Shown here: positions 4,479-62,197 of the stretch, in pieces
How positions within the stretch are numbered: position 1 is the first letter of the stretch
Layout: the number at the start of each line of letters is the position of its first letter
Origin: Saccharopolyspora montiporae
GTDB taxonomy: Bacteria > Actinomycetota > Actinomycetes > Mycobacteriales > Pseudonocardiaceae
Length of the DNA stretch: 64,000 nucleotides
NCBI RefSeq assembly: GCF_015209505.1
Contig: NZ_JADEYC010000012.1
Coordinates: forward strand, 1-64,000
Reading direction: 5' to 3'
Made by a program: the position numbers and the translations under genes
The notes under the pieces: model-generated
The model's input: the letters and a program-made list of their open reading frames with translations, nothing else
What the model was told of the DNA's origin: nothing
Database searches by the model: none

Positions 4479-5816
4479 CTACCCGGACCGCCCCCGGCGC
4501 AGGGCCAGCTGGTTGAGCCCCCAGAACACGAGACCGGTACCGAGCAGCACCGCGACCACGACGTACTCGGCCGGATCGCGACCGGTCAGCGGGCTGGCGA
4601 AGAACGCGCAGCTGAGCGCGCCGAGCACCGGAACCGCCGTGGGCGCGCGGAAGTGCTCGTGGTCGGCGGGTTCCCGCCGCAGCACCAGCACCGCGACGTT
4701 GACCACCGCGAACACGATCAGCAGCAGCAGCGAGGTCGTCCCGCCCAGTGCCGAGATGTCCAGCGCCGCGACCAGTCCGATGCCGAGCAGGCTGGTGAAC
4801 AGGATCGCCGCCCAGGGCGTGCGGCGGGTGCGGTGCACCGTGCCGAAGGCGGCCGGGATGAGCCCTTCCCGCGCCATCCCGTACAGCAACCTGCTGGCCA
4901 TCATCATGTTGATCAGCGCCGAGTTGACCACCGAGAACAGCGCGATCGCCGCGAAGGCCAGCAGCGGGAACCACGGCGCCCCGGCGCGGACGACCTCCAG
5001 CAGCGGCGCGGTGGAGCCCGCCAGCACGTGCACCGGGACCAGCAGCGACGACGCGACGGCCACCAGCAGGTAGATGGCCGCGCAGATGACGATCCCGGTG
5101 AGGATCGCCCGCGGGAAGATCCGCACCGGATCCCGGGTCTCCTCGACCATGTTCACCGAATCCTCGAATCCGACCAGCGAGAAGAAGGCCAGCGCGGTGG
5201 CCGAGGTCACGCCGAAGAACACGCCCGCCTCGGAGTTGACCTCCAGCAACCGCGCGGGTTCGCCCGCGCCCTGCACGACCGCGAGGAACCCGACGGCGAT
5301 CACCACGAGCAGCCCGGTGAGCTCGACGGCGGTCAGCAGCACGTTGAGCTTCACCGATACGCCCACGCCGCGGAAGTTGATCACCGCGATCAGGGCCAGG
5401 AAGCCGAAGGCGACCAGACTCTCCGGCGCGCTGACGAATTCCTGCAGGTAGTCCCCGCTGAACGCTTCCGCCGCCGAGGCCGCCGAGGTGATCCCGGAGC
5501 ACATCACCGCGAAGGCGACCAGGAACGTGAGCAGGTGCACGCCGAACGCGCGGTGGGTGTACAGCGCAGCCCCGGCCGCCCGCGGGTACTTGCCCACGAG
5601 TTCGAGGTAGCTGAACGCGGTCAGGAAGGCCAGCGCGAAGGCGATGAGGAAGGGCAGCCACAGGGCACCGCCGACCAGCCCGGCGACCTTGCCGGTCAGC
5701 GAGTAGATGCTCGCCCCGAGGATGTCGCCCACCACGAACAACAGCAGCAGCTTGGGTCCCATGACGCGGGCCAGCTGCGGCTCGCCGTCCCGTTCCGGGG
5801 TGACCGTCGTCGACAT
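4479..5816 (-). CDS. APC-superfamily amino acid permease
   Basis: A 445-residue integral membrane transporter with about 12 hydrophobic segments. The N-terminal segment has the APC-type unwound helix GDILGASIYSLTGKVAGLVGG, followed by a Pro/Phe-rich TM2 (LWLPFLIAFALAF) and the conserved SLVGFEDSVNMVEE stretch of the basic/APA branch. This places it among proton-coupled amino-acid or amine transporters; substrate not determinable. ATG 5816 gives the usual short polar N-terminus. It is transcribed divergently from an aminotransferase across a 222-bp region with repeated TGCAA half-sites, which suggests the two serve the same amino compound. That link is inferred from position only. Confidence 0.87.
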   Translation of the reverse strand: MSTTVTPERDGEPQLARVMGPKLLLLFVVGDILGASIYSLTGKVAGLVGGALWLPFLIAFALAFLTAFSYLELVGKYPRAAGAALYTHRAFGVHLLTFLVAFAVMCSGITSAASAAEAFSGDYLQEFVSAPESLVAFGFLALIAVINFRGVGVSVKLNVLLTAVELTGLLVVIAVGFLAVVQGAGEPARLLEVNSEAGVFFGVTSATALAFFSLVGFEDSVNMVEETRDPVRIFPRAILTGIVICAAIYLLVAVASSLLVPVHVLAGSTAPLLEVVRAGAPWFPLLAFAAIALFSVVNSALINMMMASRLLYGMAREGLIPAAFGTVHRTRRTPWAAILFTSLLGIGLVAALDISALGGTTSLLLLIVFAVVNVAVLVLRREPADHEHFRAPTAVPVLGALSCAFFASPLTGRDPAEYVVVAVLLGTGLVFWGLNQLALRRGRSG

Positions 5817-46468: not shown

Positions 46469-46724
46469 GGGTGTCTCCGGTGGGCTGGCGGGAACGGTGG
46501 ATGCGGTGCACCCCTGGGTCGGCGGATCCCCGACGAGGACCGCCTCGCGCGCGACGAGCGGGCGTCGTTCGGAACCCGGTGTCCACACAGGACTGCCGGA
46601 TCGGTCCGGCGCGACATGCCCGGCATGCGAGGCCACGACCTCCTGGGTTTTCCGCCCGAGGGGCTCGGTTCCGCGCGACGCGGCGCGTCGCGGGGCCGGC
46701 GTGGAGTCGTCCGGTTCCCGGATC

Positions 46725-46850
46725 ATCGCGGTCTCCCCGCCTTCCGGCCGATGCGGCCGTGGCTCGGTGTGGGGCCACTTCCCGGTCACAGCGGCGGGAC
46801 CGTCCCGGTCTCGCACCGGGTTCCTCCACCGCGCGGCCGGTGTATCTTCA
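46725..46850 (-). ncRNA. Cobalamin riboswitch (left block)
   Basis: On the minus strand the conserved core reads AGGAACCCGGTGCGAGACC, then GGGACGGTCCC, then GCCGCTGTGACCGGGAAG, covering 46825 to 46778. This is the cobalamin riboswitch signature; the usual GCCACTG box has one A-to-G change here. The 3' part (GAGCCACGG, then GGCCGGAAGG) is a poor match to the AGTCAGGA segment. It lies upstream of the cobH/cbiX remnants and cobA. TTGACC at 46872-46867 upstream is a possible -35 box. Confidence 0.85.
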
Positions 46851-48965: not shown

Positions 48966-50717
48966 TCACTCGGCGGCCATCCACCGGTACCCGCCCGGGG
49001 TGACCATCCGCCCACCGATCACCGAACTCTGCGAGGAGCCGACCAGGACCGTGGTGCACGCGTCGACCTCCGCCGCGTCGAACTCGCCGATCGGTGCGCA
49101 CCACACCCGCGGACCGTCCCGGCTCGCCCTTCGGACGGCCCCGACCGGAGTCGTGGCCGGGCGGTGCTCGGCGAGGATCTGCAGCGCCCGCGGCAGCTGC
49201 CAGTCGTGCTGCCGGGACCGCGGGTCGTAGAAGCACACGGCGAGATCGCCTTCGGCCGCCGCACGCACCCGCCGCTCGATGACCTCCCACGGGGTGTGCC
49301 GATCGGACAGGCTGATCAACGCGTGGTCCTGGCCGAGCGGAGCGCCGAGCAGCGCCGCGGCCGACAGCGCCGCGGTGATGCCGGGTACGCCCACGTACTC
49401 GATGTCCGCACCGGCCCGCTCCAGCGCGGGACCGGCCACCGCGTACACGCCCGCGTCCCCGGAACCGATCAACGCCACCGCATTCCCGCCGCGCGCCAGC
49501 CGGACCGCCTCGGCGGCGAGCTGCTCCGCGGCAGGCCCACCGCTGCGCAGTTCGGTACCCGGGCGCAGCAGGTGCCGGACCTGTTCCAGGCACCGGTCCG
49601 GGCCCACGACGATCGAGGCGCGGCGCAGTTCGGCCTCGGCCCGCGGAGTGCGCAGCTCGCCGTCGCCGGGACCGACCCCGACGATGGCGAGGCGGCCGCG
49701 CGGGCGCACCCGGGCCGCGGCCACCGTCACCTGGTCACCCTTGATCTTCGGCACCGCGAGTTCCACCGGACCGCCCGCGGCGATCTCCTGCGCACCGCGC
49801 AGCGCTGCCGCCTCGGCCACGCTGGGCGTGCCGGCCGCATCGCGCACGGTCTCGCTGGGGTGCGGCACGTCCACCGCGGCCAGCGCGTCGGCCGGGTAGG
49901 TCAGCAGCGGCAGCTCCTCCCCGCCGTCGCGGGAGTGCCAGAACCCCAGGTCCTGAGCCGCCTCCAGGATCCCCCGCTCGTCGGCCTTGCGGTCGACGCT
50001 GGCCAGCGACCGGATCGCTCGCGGGTCCAGCCCGTAGCGCCGCTCCAACGCGGCGACCGCCTCGGTGACCGCGGTGCGCGAAACCCCGCGCATCGAGCCG
50101 ATTCCTACGACGAGCGTGCGCGGGATCAAGCGCAGCACCCGCTCGTCCGGGCGGTCCCGGGCAACGCCGTCGTCGATGACGATCGTCCACATCGGATCCG
50201 GCACATCGGTCCCGACATTGCCGGGCAGCGCGGGAAGTGGGAAACCGAGCGGGTTCTCCAGCCGCACCGGCAGCCCGTCGAGCACGGCCGTTCCGCACTC
50301 GGCCGGGTCTCCGTCGGCGGTGGCGTCGAGCACGCCGACCAGCTCGTCCAGCGGGGTGCTGCCGGTGCTGTCGCCGGCGGTGGTGACGACAGGAGTGCAG
50401 CCCAGCGCATCAGCCACCTGCTCGGCCAGCGCGTGTCCGCGGCGCGCGGGCCCGCCGGTCAGCGCGATCGCGAACCGCTGCGCCTCGTCCACGCACACCA
50501 CGCCCGGATCGGTGTGCACGTCCTGCAGCAGCGGCGCCACGAGGCGCAGCACGGCCTCGCTACCCAGGAAGAACACCGCTGCGTCCAGCCGATCCCATAC
50601 CCGGCGCAGCGCCGGGGCGAGCGGGCCGTCCACGACCATCGCCTCCGGGCCCACGCGGATGGCCAGGTCCGCCGCCGCGCGTCGTCCGGCGGCGGTGACC
50701 GCGAACAGACCGATCAC
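48966..50717 (-). CDS. cobJ: CbiG-CobJ fusion: cobalt-precorrin-5A hydrolase / precorrin-3B C17-methyltransferase
   Basis: A 583-residue two-domain B12 enzyme. Residues 1-330 resemble CbiG (VIGLFAVTAAGRRAAADLA, FFLGSEAVLRLVAPLL, GGPARRGHALAEQVADALG, VGIGSMRGVSRTAV), which opens the ring-A lactone and releases a two-carbon fragment. Residues ~335-583 are the tetrapyrrole methylase CobJ (AIVGVGPGDGELRTPRAEAEL, SGDAGVYAVAGPALE, VPGITAALSAAALLGAPLG). GTG 50717 follows GGAGGAG. The gene is 43 bp after cobL in the same direction. A CbiG domain suggests the cobalt-early type of ring contraction. Confidence 0.9.
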   Translation of the reverse strand: MIGLFAVTAAGRRAAADLAIRVGPEAMVVDGPLAPALRRVWDRLDAAVFFLGSEAVLRLVAPLLQDVHTDPGVVCVDEAQRFAIALTGGPARRGHALAEQVADALGCTPVVTTAGDSTGSTPLDELVGVLDATADGDPAECGTAVLDGLPVRLENPLGFPLPALPGNVGTDVPDPMWTIVIDDGVARDRPDERVLRLIPRTLVVGIGSMRGVSRTAVTEAVAALERRYGLDPRAIRSLASVDRKADERGILEAAQDLGFWHSRDGGEELPLLTYPADALAAVDVPHPSETVRDAAGTPSVAEAAALRGAQEIAAGGPVELAVPKIKGDQVTVAAARVRPRGRLAIVGVGPGDGELRTPRAEAELRRASIVVGPDRCLEQVRHLLRPGTELRSGGPAAEQLAAEAVRLARGGNAVALIGSGDAGVYAVAGPALERAGADIEYVGVPGITAALSAAALLGAPLGQDHALISLSDRHTPWEVIERRVRAAAEGDLAVCFYDPRSRQHDWQLPRALQILAEHRPATTPVGAVRRASRDGPRVWCAPIGEFDAAEVDACTTVLVGSSQSSVIGGRMVTPGGYRWMAAE

Positions 50718-50760: not shown

Positions 50761-51972
50761 TCACCCGTCCGTCGCGGGCTTGCGGGAACCGCACAGCAGC
50801 ACCACCGGATCGGCCGCCTCCAACCGCGAGGAGCCGTCCGGCAGCTCGGCGAGCCTGCTGGCGGCCAGCTGCACGCCGTCGACCTCGTAGTCGGCGGCGC
50901 GCAGCGCCTCGCGAGCCGGGGCCACCCGGTCCAACGCGGCCAGGGCCACCACGACCCGGGACGCACCGACGTGCGCACAGGCGGTGACGACGTCGTTCCC
51001 GCCGCCACCGACGAAAACCGCATCGGGCCGCGGCAGGCCGCGCAACGCCTGCGGTGCGCTGCCCTCCTCGATCCGCACGTCCACCCCGTGCCCGGCGGCA
51101 TTGGTGATCATCCGCACGACCTGGTTCTCGTCGGACTCGATCGCGACCACCGCTGCGCCGAGGCGGGCGCACTCGACGGCCACCGAGCCGGAACCCGCGC
51201 CCACGTCCCACACGAGCGCGCCCGCACGCGGAGCCAACCGTGCCAGCGCCACCGACCGCACCTCGGCCTTGGTGATCATGCCGTCGCGGTGGGAGAACTC
51301 GTCCTCGGACAGCGCCCACCCGGTTTCCGGCGGCAGCGGTTCCCCGCCGGCCGCCCAGCCGCGCGGCGGCACCTCGTCCGGTTCGGCCAGGCACAGCACC
51401 ACGTTCGGCTCCCGCCAGGTTCGCTGCGCCGCATCGGCGGGATCGATCGTCACCACCGACTCGTGCTCCCCGCCGAGGTCCTCGCCCACGACCAGCGTGC
51501 GCCGCCAGCCGGCCAGCCCGGAACCGATCTGCGCGGGACCGGCTTTGGGGGCGGTCAACACCGCGACCGCGTGCCGGGCCCGGCAGACGTTGATGGCGCG
51601 CGTGAGGTCGCGCCCGTACGCGCTGACCACGGCGACGTCGTCCCAGGAGCGCCCGGCGGCGGCCATCAGCCGCTGCACGCTGGAGGTCGCGGGCAGCACC
51701 GAGCAGCGGATGCCGCGCTCGCGCAGCGCCCGCACGGCGCCGAAGAAGCCGGGGTCACCCGAAGCCAGGACCACACCCCGCTCTTCGCCGGACAGCGACG
51801 CCAGGGCGTTGAGCGCGGGGTCCAGCGGGCCGAGTTCGAAGGTCCGCACCTGCGCGGGTGCGTGCGCGCGAAGATGTTTCCCGCCGCCGACCACCAGCTG
51901 CGCGGACTCCAGCACTTCGGCGCTGCCCGGCGGAAGCCGGTCCCCGTCGACACCGATCACCGTGACTGCCAC
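50761..51972 (-). CDS. cobL: Precorrin-6B C5,15-methyltransferase (decarboxylating)
   Basis: A 403-residue two-domain enzyme. The N-terminal CbiE-type methylase (VTVIGVDGDRLPPGSAEVL, GDPGFFGAVRALRE, SSVQRLMAAAGRSWDDVAVVSAYGR) methylates C5. The C-terminal CbiT-type Rossmann methylase (MITKAEVRSVALARL, VWDVGAGSGSVAVECARL, VFVGGGG) methylates C15 and decarboxylates. GTG 51972 has GAGGTG 8 bases upstream. It lies 189 bp downstream of cobM on the same strand. Confidence 0.94.
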   Translation of the reverse strand: MAVTVIGVDGDRLPPGSAEVLESAQLVVGGGKHLRAHAPAQVRTFELGPLDPALNALASLSGEERGVVLASGDPGFFGAVRALRERGIRCSVLPATSSVQRLMAAAGRSWDDVAVVSAYGRDLTRAINVCRARHAVAVLTAPKAGPAQIGSGLAGWRRTLVVGEDLGGEHESVVTIDPADAAQRTWREPNVVLCLAEPDEVPPRGWAAGGEPLPPETGWALSEDEFSHRDGMITKAEVRSVALARLAPRAGALVWDVGAGSGSVAVECARLGAAVVAIESDENQVVRMITNAAGHGVDVRIEEGSAPQALRGLPRPDAVFVGGGGNDVVTACAHVGASRVVVALAALDRVAPAREALRAADYEVDGVQLAASRLAELPDGSSRLEAADPVVLLCGSRKPATDG

Positions 51973-52161
51973 GTCACCCACCTCGCTTCCGTGGCCGCGA
52001 CCACGCGCTCTCCCCGGAAGTCCACCATGCCGACCCGGGCGCGCGGCCTGCGGCGCTACTGTTCGCTGAACCGCTCCCATACTCCTGCGACCGGGCCGCA
52101 CAACCGTTCCGCACACGCCGGGACGACCCCCGGCGGACTGGCACACCACCTCGGCGCGGAG

Positions 52162-53496
52162 TCACTGCTCGCGATCATCCGTCTTGGCCGCGGACGTGTC
52201 CGCTGCGGGCTTCGCGGTCGACCTCGCACTCTTCCTGCCGGCGCTCTGCTTGCCGGTTCCCGTCGACTTCGACGACTTCGCACCGGTTTTCGCCGGAGCC
52301 TTGCCCGACCCGGATCCGGCACCACGGCCCTTCCCGGACGTGCCCGCGGGCTGCTGCACCGGGACCGCAGGTTCGGACTCCGCAGGTTCGGACTCCGCGG
52401 CCTCGCCCTGGGCCGACTCGGACTGGGTCGACTCGGACTGGGTCGACTCGGATGGGGCCGACTCGGATAGGGCGGGTTCCGGCTCTGCCGGGTCGAACAG
52501 GTCGGGCTGGGCCTCCTCGGCATCGCGCTCGGTGGCCTTGGACACCGCGACCCGCGCCGCCCCGCGCGCGGTCTCCTGCCAATCGCGCACGGCCCACCAG
52601 GCCACATCCGAGTCCCGCACCCGGGCGGTTCCGCCCGACTCCGCCCCGGAGTCCGCGCTGCCGGAACCGCCGCGTGCGGGGCTGCGCGTGCCGGTCCACT
52701 CGGCGCGCGGCTCGCGGCTCGGCTGCTCGTCCCCGCGGCGGAGGGCGTGGGAGCGCCCGGCGTGGTACAGGCGCGAGCGGACGCCGCCGGTGGTGAGCCC
52801 GTTGCCGACGAGGAACAGCGTGTGCCGCCAGAGCTTGTGCTCCTTGACCGTGCGGGTGAGCTCGCCGAGCGTGGTGCGCAGGATCAGCTCGTCCGGCCAG
52901 GTCACCTTGTAGGCGACGACGACCGGAGTGTCGTCCGTGTACCCGCCGGCCTGCAATTCCTCCACCATCTGCCCGGTGCGCGCCGCGGACAGGAACAGCA
53001 CCATCGTCGTGCCGTGCTTGGCGAACTCGCGCACCTTCTCCCCGTCGGGCATCGGCGTCTTGCCGCCCTCCAAGCGGGTCAACACCAGCGACTGCGCGAC
53101 CTCGGGCACGGTCAGCTCGCGCCCGACCGACGCGGCGGCGGCGGAGAACGCGGCCACACCGGGCACGATCTCGACCTGCAACGCCATCCGCACGCACACG
53201 TCGTACTGCTCCTGCACCGCGCTCCACAGCGACGGATCGCCGGAGTGCACGCGTGCCACGGCGAGCCGATCGCGTTCGGCGCGGCGGTAGATCTCCAGGG
53301 CCTGCTCGTGGGTGAGCTGCGAGGAGTCGACCAGCTCGGCATCGGCGCGGGCGTGCTCCCGCACGCACTCGGGCGCGACCAGGCTGGCCGCCCACACCAC
53401 GATGTCGGCCTCGGCGATCCGGCGCGCACCGCGCACCGTGATCAGGTCGGCCGCACCGGGCCCGGCACCGATGAACGAAATCCGGCCAGTCACCAT
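52162..53496 (-). CDS. cobM: Precorrin-4 C11-methyltransferase with long C-terminal extension
   Basis: 444 residues, against about 250-260 for the family. Residues 1-250 are a complete CobM (ISFIGAGPGAADLITVRGARRI, HSGDPSLWSAVQEQYD, VPGVAAFSAAAASVGRELTVPEVAQSLVLTR, SAARTGQMVEEL, LYHAG). The remaining ~190 residues contain a possibly folded segment (VAWWAVRDWQETARGAARVAV) and then low-complexity runs: Ser-Glu-Ser-Thr-Gln repeats and a Lys/Ser/Thr/Ala-rich, histone-like tail. ATG 53496 or GTG 53493 is the start, with GAGGAG 4 or 7 bases before. The start overlaps the stop of the cobI remnant. Confidence 0.9.
   Translation of the reverse strand: MVTGRISFIGAGPGAADLITVRGARRIAEADIVVWAASLVAPECVREHARADAELVDSSQLTHEQALEIYRRAERDRLAVARVHSGDPSLWSAVQEQYDVCVRMALQVEIVPGVAAFSAAAASVGRELTVPEVAQSLVLTRLEGGKTPMPDGEKVREFAKHGTTMVLFLSAARTGQMVEELQAGGYTDDTPVVVAYKVTWPDELILRTTLGELTRTVKEHKLWRHTLFLVGNGLTTGGVRSRLYHAGRSHALRRGDEQPSREPRAEWTGTRSPARGGSGSADSGAESGGTARVRDSDVAWWAVRDWQETARGAARVAVSKATERDAEEAQPDLFDPAEPEPALSESAPSESTQSESTQSESAQGEAAESEPAESEPAVPVQQPAGTSGKGRGAGSGSGKAPAKTGAKSSKSTGTGKQSAGRKSARSTAKPAADTSAAKTDDREQ
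52411..52470. repeat. 15-bp tandem repeat inside cobM
   Basis: Four near-identical 15-bp units of the type GGTCGACTCGGACTG encode the SESTQ/SESAQ-like pentapeptides of the CobM tail. Because the unit is a multiple of three, changes in copy number keep the frame. Confidence 0.8.
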
Positions 53497-53795
53497 TGTT
53501 CTCCTCTTCCACCTCTGAGCGGGAGCACTACCGCGGTGGACAGGTACGGGGCAGCGTCCACTTCGGACACATCGGCGCGCGGGAGCACTCGCGCATCCGG
53601 CGTTCCCCGATGCTCGGCGCGGACCGCGCGGTCCAGCACCCCGATCTCGGCGATCGCGAACGCAGCTCGCCGAGCCGGCGGCCACCTTGTGTAGATCACG
53701 ACCGTACCCGGGGCGCGCAACGTCTCCTGCAACGCGGTCGCGTCCCCGCACGACCGGCGGCGCGGGGCGCGGACCGGCTCGCCGGTCAGCGCGCT
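53490..53795 (-). pseudogene. C-terminal remnant of precorrin-2 C20-methyltransferase (cobI)
   Basis: About 100 codons ending at TGA 53490 read GDATALQETLRAPGTVVIYT, then LDRAVRAEHRGTPDARVLP and DAAPYLSTAVVLP. This pattern is the end of CobI/CbiL: the APGTVVVYK-type strand, the helix with LDRAV-x-EH, and the final PYLST strand. The N-terminal two-thirds, including the SAM-binding GPGDPE-type loops, are missing. Codons above about 53795 lack similarity and the protein as a whole could not work. The stop overlaps the cobM start by 4 bp (GTGA), the coupling expected of an intact cobI-cobM pair. Identification rests on pattern recall, not on a search. Confidence 0.6.
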
Positions 53796-53879
53796 ACCGC
53801 GCCGACGCTGCGGTCGTCCGCACGGCTGGCCGCCCGAACCCCCGCACCGCCGGCCGTACAGCGGGTTCCGCAACCAAGG

Positions 53880-53905
53880 GGCAACGGGAATCGAAAACCG
53901 TTGCC
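53880..53905 (-). terminator. Hairpin downstream of cobB
   Basis: GGCAACGG (53880-53887) and CCGTTGCC (53898-53905) form a perfect 8-bp stem with a 10-base A-rich loop, about 75 bp past the cobB stop. On the minus strand the loop contains TTTT. It would uncouple cobB from the cobI remnant and cobM. Confidence 0.55.
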
Positions 53906-53981
53906 ACCCAAAGCATCTCGTTCAGAATGACTCGGTTGCGCAGCTGCGGGCCGCCCGGACTCGCGCTCACTCCGTCGAAGC

Positions 53982-55331
53982 TCACCGCGCGCACGCGGCG
54001 ACGAACCGGGACACCGAGTCCGGCGCCCCGGCCGGATGGGTGTGCAGGTAGGAGGCGTGCACCCCGCCGACGACATACCCCTCCGGACCGCCGTACCGGA
54101 ACCAGGCCGGGCGGTCACCGCTGGCCGGATCCATGGTCGTGCGGTGGAATTCGTGCCCGCTGACGCGCGCTCCTTCCGGGAACAGAGCGGAATCGCTCGC
54201 CGCGACCGCATCGCGGTAGCCGAGGGTCAGCCGCGACGCCATCCGCGCACGCCCCGGGACGACACCGCACAGCGGATGGCCGTCGAGTTCCTCGGCGAGG
54301 TACAGCAGGCCGCCGCACTCGGCCTGCACCGGCGCCCCCGATGCGGCCAGCTCGGCGATCTCACGGCGCAGCGCGGAATTCGCGGACAGCTCGGCAGCGT
54401 GCTGTTCGGGGAAACCGCCGGGCAGCACCAGCCCGCGGGTCCGCTCCGGCAGCCGCTCGTCGCGCAGCGGGTCGACCGCGACGACCTGTGCTCCCGCGGC
54501 TTCCAGCAGCTCCACGTGCTCGGCGTAGGCGAAGGTGAACGCGCTGCCGCCCGCGATCGCGACGACGGGCCGCCGATCAGCAGGTTCGACCTCCGCCGCG
54601 GCGTCCCAGACCGGACCGGGCAGCTCGGGGGCGCTGCGCGCCAGGGACAGCACCGCGTCCAGATCGGTGCCGCGCTCGACGACGTCGGCCATCGCGTCCA
54701 CCGCATCCTGCGCGCGGCGCCCGTGTTCGGCGGCGGTGATCAGCCCGAGGTGCCGCGAAGGCACCACGACCTCCTCGTCCCGGCCCAGCACGCCCAGCAC
54801 CGGCAGGCCAACGCTGTCCGCGGCCTCGCGGAGCACCTGCTCGTGGCGCGGGGAGCCGACCCGGTTGAGCAGCACACCGCCCACCCGGACCTGCGGGCGG
54901 TGACTGCGGAAACCGTGCAGCAACGCAGCGAGGCTGTGCCCGAAACCCTGACCGTCGACGACCAGCACCACCGGCGCGGCCAGCAGTTCGGCGACGTGCG
55001 CGGTGGATCCGGGTGCCACATCCGCGTCCCCGGTGCCGATGCGCCCGTCGAACAGGCCCATCACGCCCTCCACCACCGCGAGCTCGGATCCGGCGCAACC
55101 GTGCCGGAACAGCGGGCCGATGCGCTCCTCGCCGACCAGCACCGGATCCAGGTTGCGCCCCGGCGATCCTGCCGCGAGGCGGTGGTAGCCGGGGTCGATG
55201 AAGTCCGGGCCGACCTTGAACGGGGCCACCCGGGTACCCCGCCGGCGCAGCGCGGCGAGCAGTCCGGTGGCCACGATCGTCTTGCCCTGCCCGGAGGCGG
55301 GGGCGGCGACGACCAGACGCGGGCTCACCAC
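53982..55331 (-). CDS. cobB: Cobyrinate/hydrogenobyrinate a,c-diamide synthase
   Basis: A 449-residue ATP-dependent amidase (CobB/CbiA). The N-terminal dethiobiotin synthetase-like fold has APASGQGKTIVATGLL (P-loop near residue 13) and FKVGPDFIDPGYH, then VEGVMGLFDG. The C-terminal glutamine amidotransferase has LPGGFPE, nucleophile Cys in QAECGGLLYL and the late His of GGVHASYLHTH. GTG 55331 or 55328 is the start; the cobO TGA overlaps it, so the two are coupled. Confidence 0.94.
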   Translation of the reverse strand: MVSPRLVVAAPASGQGKTIVATGLLAALRRRGTRVAPFKVGPDFIDPGYHRLAAGSPGRNLDPVLVGEERIGPLFRHGCAGSELAVVEGVMGLFDGRIGTGDADVAPGSTAHVAELLAAPVVLVVDGQGFGHSLAALLHGFRSHRPQVRVGGVLLNRVGSPRHEQVLREAADSVGLPVLGVLGRDEEVVVPSRHLGLITAAEHGRRAQDAVDAMADVVERGTDLDAVLSLARSAPELPGPVWDAAAEVEPADRRPVVAIAGGSAFTFAYAEHVELLEAAGAQVVAVDPLRDERLPERTRGLVLPGGFPEQHAAELSANSALRREIAELAASGAPVQAECGGLLYLAEELDGHPLCGVVPGRARMASRLTLGYRDAVAASDSALFPEGARVSGHEFHRTTMDPASGDRPAWFRYGGPEGYVVGGVHASYLHTHPAGAPDSVSRFVAACAR

Positions 55332-55939
55332 TCGATTCCCTTCTGCCCCTTCTGCCCATCGTCCATCGGGTGCTTGACCTTGCTGGTCTGCATGACCAGA
55401 TCGGCGGCGTCGATGAGCTGCTGCGGGGCGTAGCGCCCGGTGATCACCACGTGCTGGTGCCCTTCCCTGCGGTTCAGCACGTCGACCACCTCGGCCACGT
55501 CGACCCAGCCCCAGTGCAGCGGATAGGTGAACTCGTCGAGCACGTAGATGCCGTGCTGCTGCTCGCCGATCCGCCGGGCGATCTCCTGCCAGCCCTCCAG
55601 GGCGGCCGCGGCGTGGTCTTCCTCAGTGCCCTTCTTGCGGGACCAGGACCAGCCCTCGCCCATCTTGTGCCACTCGACGGGGCCGCCTTCGCCGGACTGC
55701 TCGTGCAGCCGGCCGAGCGCGCGGAAGGCCGATTCCTCCCCGACGCGCCACTTGGCGGACTTCACGAACTGGAACACGCCGACCGACCAGCCTTGGTTCC
55801 ATCCGCGCAGGGCGAGCCCGAAGGCTGCGGTGGACTTGCCCTTCATCTCACCGGTGTGCACCACGACCAGCGGCCGGTTACGGCGCTGCCGCGTGGTGAG
55901 ACCGTCTGCCGGCACTGCTGTCGGCTGTCCTTGTGGCAT
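55325..55939 (-). CDS. cobO: Corrinoid adenosyltransferase CobO
   Basis: A 204-residue CobA/CobO-type ATP:corrinoid adenosyltransferase, which attaches the 5'-deoxyadenosyl ligand. The P-loop is HTGEMKGKSTAAFG (residues 28-41). Other marks are GVFQFVKSAKWRVGEESAF, VLDEFTYPLHWGWVDV and HVVITGRYAPQQLIDAADLV. ATG 55939 gives the normal start. It overlaps cobB downstream. The 354-bp region between it and chlID (55940-56293) holds a terminator-like hairpin and no gene. Confidence 0.94.
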   Translation of the reverse strand: MPQGQPTAVPADGLTTRQRRNRPLVVVHTGEMKGKSTAAFGLALRGWNQGWSVGVFQFVKSAKWRVGEESAFRALGRLHEQSGEGGPVEWHKMGEGWSWSRKKGTEEDHAAAALEGWQEIARRIGEQQHGIYVLDEFTYPLHWGWVDVAEVVDVLNRREGHQHVVITGRYAPQQLIDAADLVMQTSKVKHPMDDGQKGQKGIEW

Positions 55940-56144
55940 GGATCGACCCCAAGCGGTTGTCCGAGCCCGTCCGGGTTCCCGCCGCGCACTCGCGGACGGC
56001 CGGGCCGAGCTGCTTTCGTTATCTCTTGCGCGCGCCTCCGGCGGCGCAGCCGGTTCCACGTCCGCCGACCCGCACCGGGGCGGTCGCCCATCGGCGAGCC
56101 CGAGCGGGCGGCCGCCGGACCGGTTCCGGTCCTCGCACGTCAAA

Positions 56145-56293: not shown

Positions 56294-58372
56294 TCAAGCT
56301 GCGCGCGCATCACCACCCTGCGCGGCGCGGACGACACCGGCCACGCTGTCGGCCGAGAGCTCTTCCAGCCGCAGGCAGGATCCGCCCATCGCCGCGGCCA
56401 GCCGACCGGCCAGACCGAGGCGCACCGCCCCCGACTCGCAGTCCACGACGACCGAGGCGGCACCGGTCCCGGCGAGCAACCCGGCAGCGCGGAGCGCGTC
56501 ATCGACGGCGGCCCTGCTGCCCGAGCCCGCGGATCCCCCGGTCGGCACGGTCGCCTTGCCGTCGGTGAGCAGCACCAGGAGCGGGCGCCGCTGCGGATCG
56601 CGCATCCGCTCGGTGCGCACCACACCGCGCGTCTTCAGGAGGCCGTCCGCCAGCGGGGTGCGTCCGCCGGTGCGCAGCCCGCGCATCCGCGCAGCCGCCA
56701 CGTCCACCGAGTTGGTGGGCGGCAGCGCCAGTTCGGCGCCCTCGCCGCGGAACGTGACCACGCCGACCTTGTCCCGGCGCTGGTAAGCGTCCAGCAGCAG
56801 GGACAGCACGGCGCCGCTGACGGCCGACATCCGTTCCCGAGCCGCCATCGAGCCGGACGCGTCGACGGCGAACAGCACCAGGTTGCCCTCGCGACCCTCC
56901 CGGACGGCACGCCGGACGTCCCCGCCGCGCAGCACCAATCCCGGACCGGTGCGGCCGCGCTCGACCTGGTGCGGCGCGGCGGCGGCCAGCGTGGACTGCA
57001 GGTGGATCCCGGACCCGTCCGAAGTGGACGATCGGACGGTGCGCCCGGTCCGCGAGCGGGAACGGGACCGCCGCCCGGGGGCTCCGTCGCCCACGCCCGG
57101 CACTTCGAGCAGCCGCGCGCGGAATGCGGGTTCCGGGGCTGCGGGCGAGCGCTCCTTGGGCGCCGTGCCGTTCTCGTCCGGATCGCCTTCCGGCGGCACC
57201 GCACCCGATCCGGAGTCACCGGAGGGACCGCTGGGGTCCTCCGGCGGTCGGCCGCCGCCTCCGTCCGGACCACCACCGCCGTCCGGGCCGTCGCCGTCCG
57301 GGCCACCGTCATCCGGGCCGTCCGGCGGGTCCTGGTCCCCGTCGTCGGCCTGTTCGGCGGCCTCGGACATCGCCTGCTGCAACTGGTCTTCGGACATGCC
57401 GGGCTCGTCGAACGGATCCCGGCGGCGGCGGTGCGGCAGCGCCAGGCGCGCGGCCACTTCCACATCGGCTTCGGCGACCGCCTCGGCTCCGCGCCAGGCG
57501 GCGTGCGCGATGGCGGTGCGCGCGAGCACGAGATCGGCGCGCATGCCGTCGACGTCGAACGAGGCGCACAGCGCGGAGATCCGGCGCACCTCGGAATCGG
57601 GCAGCACGACCGACTCCACCCGACCGCGCGCTGCGGCGATGCTGCCGGCCAGGTCCGCGTCGGCCTCGGCCCACCGGTCGGCGAACCCTTCCGGATCCGC
57701 TTCGAACGCGAGCCTGCGCCGCACCACCTCGGTGCGCGTGGCGACCTCGCGGGAGGCCGAGACCTGCACGGTGAGCCCGAACCGGTCCAGCAGCTGCGGG
57801 CGCAGCTCGCCCTCCTCCGGGTTCATCGTGCCGACGAGCAGGAACGACGCCGCGTGCGACACGGACACGCCCTCCCGCTCGATGTGCGCGCGCCCCATGG
57901 CGGCGGCATCCAGCAGCAGGTCGACCAGGTGGTCGTGCAGCAGGTTCACTTCGTCGACGTAGAGCACGCCGCGGTGCGCGGCCGCGAGCAGACCCGGCTG
58001 GAACGCCCGCACGCCCTCGGTGAGGGCGCGCTCCAGGTCCAGCGAGCCGATCAGCCGGTCCTCCGTAGCCCCCACCGGCAGTTCGACCAGCTGCGCGGGC
58101 CGGTTCTGCCCCTGCACTCGGGTGTGCGGACCGTCCGGGCACTGCGGGTCGGGATCACCGGCCGCGCACCCGAAGCGGCACCCCGTCACCACGTCCACCG
58201 CGGGCAGCAGCGCGGCCAGCGCGCGCACCACGGTCGACTTGGCGGTCCCCTTCTCACCGCGCACCAGCACTCCGCCGATCCGCGGATGCACCGCGTTGAG
58301 CACGAGGGCGAGCCGGAGATCGTCGTGACCGACCACGGCGGAGAACGGGTACCGCGCAGCAGCTGCTGTCAT
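56294..58372 (-). CDS. Fused magnesium-chelatase-like subunits ChlI and ChlD (cobaltochelatase-associated)
   Basis: A 692-residue protein. Residues 1-330 are an AAA+ ATPase of the BchI/ChlI type (Walker [10 protein letters not shown] near 39-47, Walker [35 protein letters not shown]). A Gly/Pro/Asp-rich linker (about 330-430) leads to a ChlD-like C-terminus with a von Willebrand A domain whose metal site is DASGSM near residue 505. In actinobacteria such fusions work with CobN to insert cobalt into hydrogenobyrinate diamide; CobN is not in this window. ATG 58372 follows a cobalamin riboswitch, so B12 should repress it. Confidence 0.9.
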
Positions 58373-58419: not shown

Positions 58420-58600
58420 AAGGGACGCAGTGTCCTGACTCCCGGTTCAGCGCATCCTCCTGGCCTTCCCAGAACCCTGGCCTTCCCAGAACCTGCTCCG
58501 GTGGCGGGAGTCGGAGAACGCTCCCCGGTCACAGTGGCGCCGACCGTGCCGGATTCGCACCGGCTTCCTGACGCACCCTTGCTTGGACCGCTCTGCATCG
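58420..58600 (-). ncRNA. Cobalamin riboswitch (right block)
   Basis: The minus strand shows the complete signature: AGGAAGCCGGTGCGAATCC (58569 downward), GGCACGGTCG, the B12 box GCCACTGT, GACCGGGGAG, and after a variable arm GAGTCAGGACACTG at 58442-58429. It ends about 55 bases before the chlID ATG, close enough to control ribosome access. The variable arm contains a perfect 17-bp tandem duplication. Confidence 0.93.
58460..58493. repeat. Perfect 17-bp tandem duplication in the riboswitch
   Basis: CTGGCCTTCCCAGAACC at 58460-58476 is repeated without change at 58477-58493. Each copy contains CTGG and CCAG arms able to pair within the unit. It falls between the GGGGAG and AGTCAGGA conserved segments, a part of the riboswitch that tolerates length changes. 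Confidence 0.95.
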
Positions 58601-62120: not shown

Positions 62121-62197
62121 ATCCACAGCGCGGGGCACATCACTCGGCGGAACGACTGGCTCGTCCACTTCGGACTGATCGGCGGCGCGTATCCGGC

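Follow-up and report, generated by a model that had tools for sequence, protein, structure and literature searches.

Gene decay after redundancy is a general, known kind of event. The closest described counterparts of the locus studied here are the CobI/CbiL family (TIGR01467) and the CobIJ fusion of actinobacteria; cobIJ has been named among the cobamide genes of Mycobacterium tuberculosis (PMC12713380). We analyzed a stretch of 64,000 nt from Saccharopolyspora montiporae (contig NZ_JADEYC010000012.1, positions 1 to 64,000; the window), in which a cob cluster, locus A, runs on the minus strand in the order cobO, cobB, gap, cobM, cbiET, and cbiG-cobJ. The gap holds a stub of the 3' third of cobI (53490..53744, minus strand) with 61-70% identity to intact relatives. 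The stub resembles CobI/CbiL in that its last third aligns at positions 158-228 of TIGR01467 and its place matches that of the relatives' intact cobI, but it differs in that the middle is missing, the N-terminal part is degraded, the frame is disturbed, and the score falls far under the cut-off. We consider it very probable that the stub is a pseudogene of the locus A cobI, that the CobIJ of a second cluster (locus B) made this gene redundant, and that cobI was lost by deletion and decay.

A cobI remnant between cobB and cobM

The neighbors of the stub are all encoded on the minus strand. Upstream lies cobB (cobyrinic/hydrogenobyrinic acid a,c-diamide synthase, 53982..55331; NCBIfam NF002204 and TIGR00379 over cut-off), preceded by a gene at approximately 55325..55957 that we take to be cobO by synteny, with matches at the same place in relatives, and by 56294..58372, presumably a chlID-type chelatase subunit fusion, matched close to the equivalent place in most relatives. 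A cobalamin riboswitch (58428..58570; Rfam RF00174, 69.2 bits) lies upstream of the locus A genes and is one of three over the gathering score, the others being at 46705-46825 (minus strand) and at 5344-5523 (minus strand) of L009; two of these belong to locus A, and the third lies in locus B, where cobN begins. Downstream lie the locus A copies of cobM (precorrin-4 C11-methyltransferase, 52162..53496; TIGR01465 over cut-off), cbiET/cobL (50761..51978; TIGR02467 over cut-off, TIGR02469 just below it), and cobJ, the last in a cbiG-cobJ fusion (48966..50651) assigned by synteny and by Pfam CbiG_N, CbiG_C, and TP_methylase over cut-off. CobM has a long low-complexity C-terminal tail (52162-52720, minus strand); the protein measures 402-513 aa across 22 genomes, and a WWAVRDWQ-like motif recurs in this tail in many of the sequences listed.

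The sequence-only reading had proposed that the frame before cobM is the C-terminal third of CobI, and the profile search bore this out. TIGR01467 (cobI_cbiL) was the sole NCBIfam family to match the 127-aa frame 53490-53873 (minus strand) at E up to 1 (E 0.011, profile positions 158-228 of 230), and a Pfam search of the same frame gave no match at E up to 1. The 84-aa core of the tail matched TIGR01467 at E 0.0045 in NCBIfam, with two weaker matches to another CobI model (E 0.085) and a transposase model (E 0.13). The two TIGR01467 scores, 15.2 and 16.4 bits, lie below the whole-protein cut-off of 163.25 bits. In a database of 75 loci, the tail was 60.7-70.2% identical to the intact CobI of ten relatives at the same place (E 2e-23 to 5e-28). 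Its stop codon, TGA (53492-53490), overlaps the cobM start as ATGGTGA, and all ten intact relatives are alike in this, so the overlap described earlier also held. The tail is shorter than had been thought, given that CobI-like sequence ends at 53744 and not at 53795. As for a syntenic pseudogene, an intact ortholog lies at the equivalent place in 10 of 22 genomes of the genus. Judged by homology and place, the stub is a pseudogene of a stand-alone cobI (precorrin-2 C20-methyltransferase) that once lay between cobB and cobM in locus A.

In the DNA alignment, the two ends of cobI are still present in the window (5', about 110 nt; 3', about 250 nt), and the middle is absent. The degraded 5' end (53872..53985, minus strand), whose GTG overlaps the cobB stop as GTGA, was recognized by alignment to ten intact cobI genes and by a shuffle test, in which it aligned above dinucleotide shuffles for four of five references (z 5.5-9.7), the fifth giving z 1.6. 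The block between the two ends was not outstanding against dinucleotide shuffles (z 0.2 to 1.7). Thus, the claim that only the C-terminal third survives was right about the lost middle but missed the degraded 5' end after cobB. The tail itself carries +1 and -1 indels that cancel each other, with GGRRLGELR in the neighboring frame, and the frame from the old cobI start runs into a stop at 53796-53794, about 300 nt upstream of cobM. The stub is therefore disabled by a deletion, by these indels, and by an early stop, and a complete in-frame N-terminal part is absent; none of the three frames read on the minus strand between cobB and cobM was found to contain an intact cobI start, one of the two findings named beforehand as speaking against a remnant.

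A hairpin had been noted after cobB, and it does exist (8-bp arms at 53880-53887 and 53898-53905 within 53880..53905, minus strand), but it sits inside the decayed cobI 5' end. We rejected it as a terminator, given that no terminator-like site was found in this stretch and that the stretch folds no more stably than shuffles (z -0.39).

It is extremely improbable that the stub is an assembly or sequencing artefact. The genome is a draft (4.16 Mb in 51 contigs, 92.5% complete), but eleven other genomes of the genus, two of which (G003 and G020) are single-contig assemblies, are eroded at this place too, and their lesions differ.

A second cob cluster and the history of the loss

The search for an intact cobI or cobIJ elsewhere in the genome, suggested in the sequence-only reading, was successful. 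The sole CobI over cut-off is encoded on contig C45 (51456-52151, 209.6 bits) in a frame of 515 codons whose second half is CobJ. This frame belongs to locus B, with the order cobN, cobG, cobH, cobIJ, cobK, cbiD, cobM2, and cbiET2, several of these names being our own reading of the frames. Like the CobIJ fusion of actinobacteria, the locus B protein carries the CobI enzyme domain and presumably does the former job of the stub; unlike the stub, it is intact, shares one frame with CobJ, and lies in a separate cluster. Identity between its CobI part and the stand-alone CobI of the ten relatives is low, at about 29-32%.

Each of the 22 Saccharopolyspora genomes has exactly one CobI match at E 1e-20, over cut-off in every case, and CobN, CbiD, and CobH are each matched somewhere in all 22. 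In ten genomes, CobI lies directly upstream of cobM, between cobB and cobM, and no second CobM was found at E 1e-30. In the other twelve, the genome of the window included, CobI is part of a long frame with cobJ, and a second CobM is present at 43-45% identity. The gap between cobB and cobM measures 730-733 nt in the ten intact genomes versus 169-529 nt in the twelve eroded ones. The same twelve have lost cbiD between cobM and cbiET, where 149-284 nt are left (184 nt in the window) compared to 1126-1261 nt in the ten. What remains of cbiD in the window is a 3' stub adjoining cbiET (51978..52159, minus strand), which matches the corresponding end of cbiD in the ten intact relatives at 76-82% nucleotide identity (E 3e-39 at best). 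Two blocks of the cbiD stub, CGGCGTGTGCG and GCAGTAT, seem by eye to be well conserved among the eroded genomes, the latter reading GGAGTAT in the window. Across the 22 genomes, then, the presence of locus B and the loss of both cobI and cbiD from locus A are associated one to one, and inventories of B12 genes must count both loci. As a separate observation, the CobN matches at G006:C1:8078602-8081900 occupy two frames that overlap, which would be the pattern of a gene broken by a frameshift.

Among 140 sampled genomes of the family, CobI was matched at E 1e-20 in 129, over cut-off in 128, and not at all in 11; one genome (G032) has only a CobI fragment. Second, weak CobI matches below cut-off occur in three genomes (G108, G135, and G155), and no other cob genes were found near them in the 7-9 kb fetched around each. 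Locus B was present in 14 of 14 genomes of other genera that were fetched, a sample chosen for long CobI frames.

These data suggest a mechanism in which locus B, by encoding CobI within CobIJ, would have rendered the cobI and cbiD of locus A redundant, and both would then have been lost through internal deletion and point decay. That CobIJ replaced the locus A CobI, and that redundancy caused the loss, is what we infer from this sequence comparison, and the pattern across the genus fits repeated loss after redundancy. Redundancy alone does not explain why cobI and cbiD in particular were lost, given that cobM, cbiET, and cobJ stayed duplicated. A counterpoint within the family is G113, which keeps two CobI over cut-off in two clusters (L172 and L173), each with cobI adjoining cobJ. 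The dN/dS of the locus A cobJ was 0.92 between G008 and G017 (L135 and L136); this gene is perhaps the next redundant one to decay.

The same end state could have been reached by a different history. Both clusters may have been ancestral in the genus and differentially lost, some lineages losing cluster B and others the cobI and cbiD of cluster A, a history to which we give somewhat less than an even chance. A tree of locus A (CobO, CobB, CobM, and CbiET; 22 genomes and 5 outgroups, one row without CobO) needs five changes to account for the loss, at least three of them forced by well-supported branches, which fits repeated loss. The genomes without locus B do not form one clade in it, which agrees with differential loss. 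So does a tree of locus B that, when pruned to its twelve Saccharopolyspora genomes, broadly resembles the locus A tree by eye, as does the finding of locus B in all of the other-genus genomes fetched, albeit under the selection for long CobI frames. However, in the locus B tree the window's genome (G000) groups with G001, and four genomes of other genera separate this pair from the other ten copies of the genus, a pattern compatible with two or more origins of the cluster. That tree is a quick one with SH-aLRT support only and a midpoint root, built from 12 genomes of the genus plus 14 from elsewhere that had been selected for long CobI frames.

Possible coupling to cobM and the blocks retained in the stubs

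The start of cobM is likelier to be the ATG at 53496, kept in all 22 genomes, than the GTG at 53493, kept in 19. The sequence-only reading had held that cobM translation was once coupled to cobI and now relies on its own GAGGAG. The former pairing stands, but a former dependence on coupling and a new reliance on GAGGAG found no support here: this Shine-Dalgarno (53501..53506, minus strand) and the ATGGTGA after it also precede cobM in the ten relatives with intact cobI, so the site was not newly gained. The Shine-Dalgarno is kept in 12 of 12 eroded genomes, whereas the CobI frame leading into cobM has been lost in two of them, with 10 open codons left in G003 and a shifted frame in G011. From these comparisons, it seems that cobM does not require a coupled upstream frame.

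A more specific form of the coupling idea is that the tail has been kept as a short translated leader that carries translation into cobM. Between stops, its frame spans 143 open codons, and the ATGGTGA at its end is preserved; in the ten eroded genomes other than G003 and G011, cobM is still entered by a frame of 60 to 220 codons. By a simple counting method of our own, dN/dS of the tail was 0.19-0.30 against three intact references, compared to 0.07-0.11 for three intact pairs, and its differences from G018 fall mostly at third positions (26 at position 3, compared to 6 at position 1 and 13 at position 2). The open frame, the dN/dS well below 1, and the third-position differences suggest that the tail either decayed late or keeps some constraint. 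We nevertheless consider a leader very unlikely, given that the Shine-Dalgarno was kept in G011 and G003 despite the loss of the frame, that the window's tail has suffered indels, that translation from the old start would stop about 300 nt short of cobM, and that GAGGAG precedes cobM in intact relatives too. The cobM gene itself is still under protein selection, as indicated by dN/dS of 0.09-0.52 in 14 genome pairs; the highest values (0.40-0.52) came from three pairs within the group G003, G004, G013, and G020. The 3' end of cobI would not have been retained for its peptide or for coupling. It may instead have outlasted the rest of the gene by holding DNA that the downstream gene needs, namely, the cobM Shine-Dalgarno and perhaps a 13-mer.

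This 13-mer, GTCCGAAGTGGAC (GTCC-N5-GGAC; 53556..53568, minus strand), lies 75 nt before the cobM GTG in most eroded genomes; leaving aside the Shine-Dalgarno, no block of the eroded stubs is better conserved. When 13-nt windows were compared over the last 150 nt before cobM in the twelve eroded genomes, one sharp divergence minimum outside the Shine-Dalgarno appeared, 0.04 at the 13-mer, while the same stretch diverges by 0.16 among the ten intact genomes. Pooled divergence in the eroded genomes was 0.036 for the word, 0.214 between the word and the Shine-Dalgarno, 0.09 for the Shine-Dalgarno block, 0.424 for the upstream stub, and 0.319 for fourfold sites of three neighboring genes; the corresponding values in the intact genomes were 0.159, 0.136, 0.064, 0.116, and 0.337. 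The word is exact before cobM in 10 of 12 eroded versus 2 of 10 intact genomes (Fisher p 0.008, kinship ignored), with one mismatch in seven of the remaining intact genomes and three in G019. The twelve eroded genomes are not independent, and the 13-mer was picked from the alignment before testing. When one genome was taken per loss lineage (G000, G021, G008, G004, and G001, our own choice), three of five were exact, and the divergence was 0.08 versus 0.16 in the intact genomes. Two Crossiella loci without a detected cobI tail likewise have an exact copy before cobM, as do two other-genus loci with intact cobI (L059 and L062).

On the cbiET side, we searched 300 nt in the intact genomes and the whole gap in the eroded ones. 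Exact copies of the word precede cbiET in 4 of the 12 eroded genomes, and copies with a single mismatch in another 4; in the last four, the best match has 3 to 6 mismatches, and the window's genome, with 5 at best, has no copy. In all ten intact genomes, a near-copy (1-2 mismatches) lies within cbiD, 260-277 nt upstream of cbiET, so the sites on this side were not newly gained.

Beyond the stubs, the window holds three exact copies of the word, at 53556-53568 (minus strand), 57017-57029 (plus strand), and 62163-62175 (minus strand). In the whole genomes of G000 (that of the window), G011, G018, G005, and G004, it occurs 23, 73, 46, 54, and 84 times, respectively, compared to 0 times in all five for the reversed word and 0, 5, 6, 3, and 4 times for the synonymous form with GAG for GAA. 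Among 111 genomes drawn from the order, it was found in 48, comprising 13 of 13 genomes of the family of the window (1 to 133 copies) and 35 of 98 outside it, of which three have at least 20 copies (G057, 56; G040, 21; G186, 20). The word is strongly overrepresented in the five genomes of the genus that were counted and in some related genera. It may have another cause, however, given that 20 of 30 copies look coding in a rough frame test, 15 of them sharing a phase whose translation is SEVD. No extended consensus was found around 30 distinct copies. A k-mer test on the loci of this study was dropped because these loci are orthologs of each other, and a sigma-70 promoter in the stub was likewise rejected, the one scan match in 53400-54100 being on the other strand and the spacing of the conserved blocks differing in G003 by our own reading. 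Literature searches gave no match to the 13-mer in either orientation, no bacterial genome motif among the titles listed for the 11-mer, and, among the matches listed, no account of the cobI stub or of the GTCCGAAGTGGAC word.

We tentatively put forward, as a minority possibility, that the stub persists as regulatory DNA and that GTCCGAAGTGGAC, a 13-bp hyphenated inverted repeat, is under constraint at the DNA level as a putative site for a DNA-binding protein, such as a regulator or a nucleoid protein. If confirmed as a binding site, the word would point to a new DNA-binding system in the family and a few relatives. What merits testing in this finding is the set of retained DNA blocks, and the various states of cobI and cbiD decay provide a natural experiment on which bases beside a downstream gene persist.

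Comparison with known gene decay

In summary, the kind of event that we describe is known, and its regularity within the genus is striking. As in other cases of gene decay after redundancy, there is an intact substitute, erosion is graded, and more than one loss is seen here. Locus A differs from such cases in the two short, sharply conserved blocks of its retained 3' stubs.
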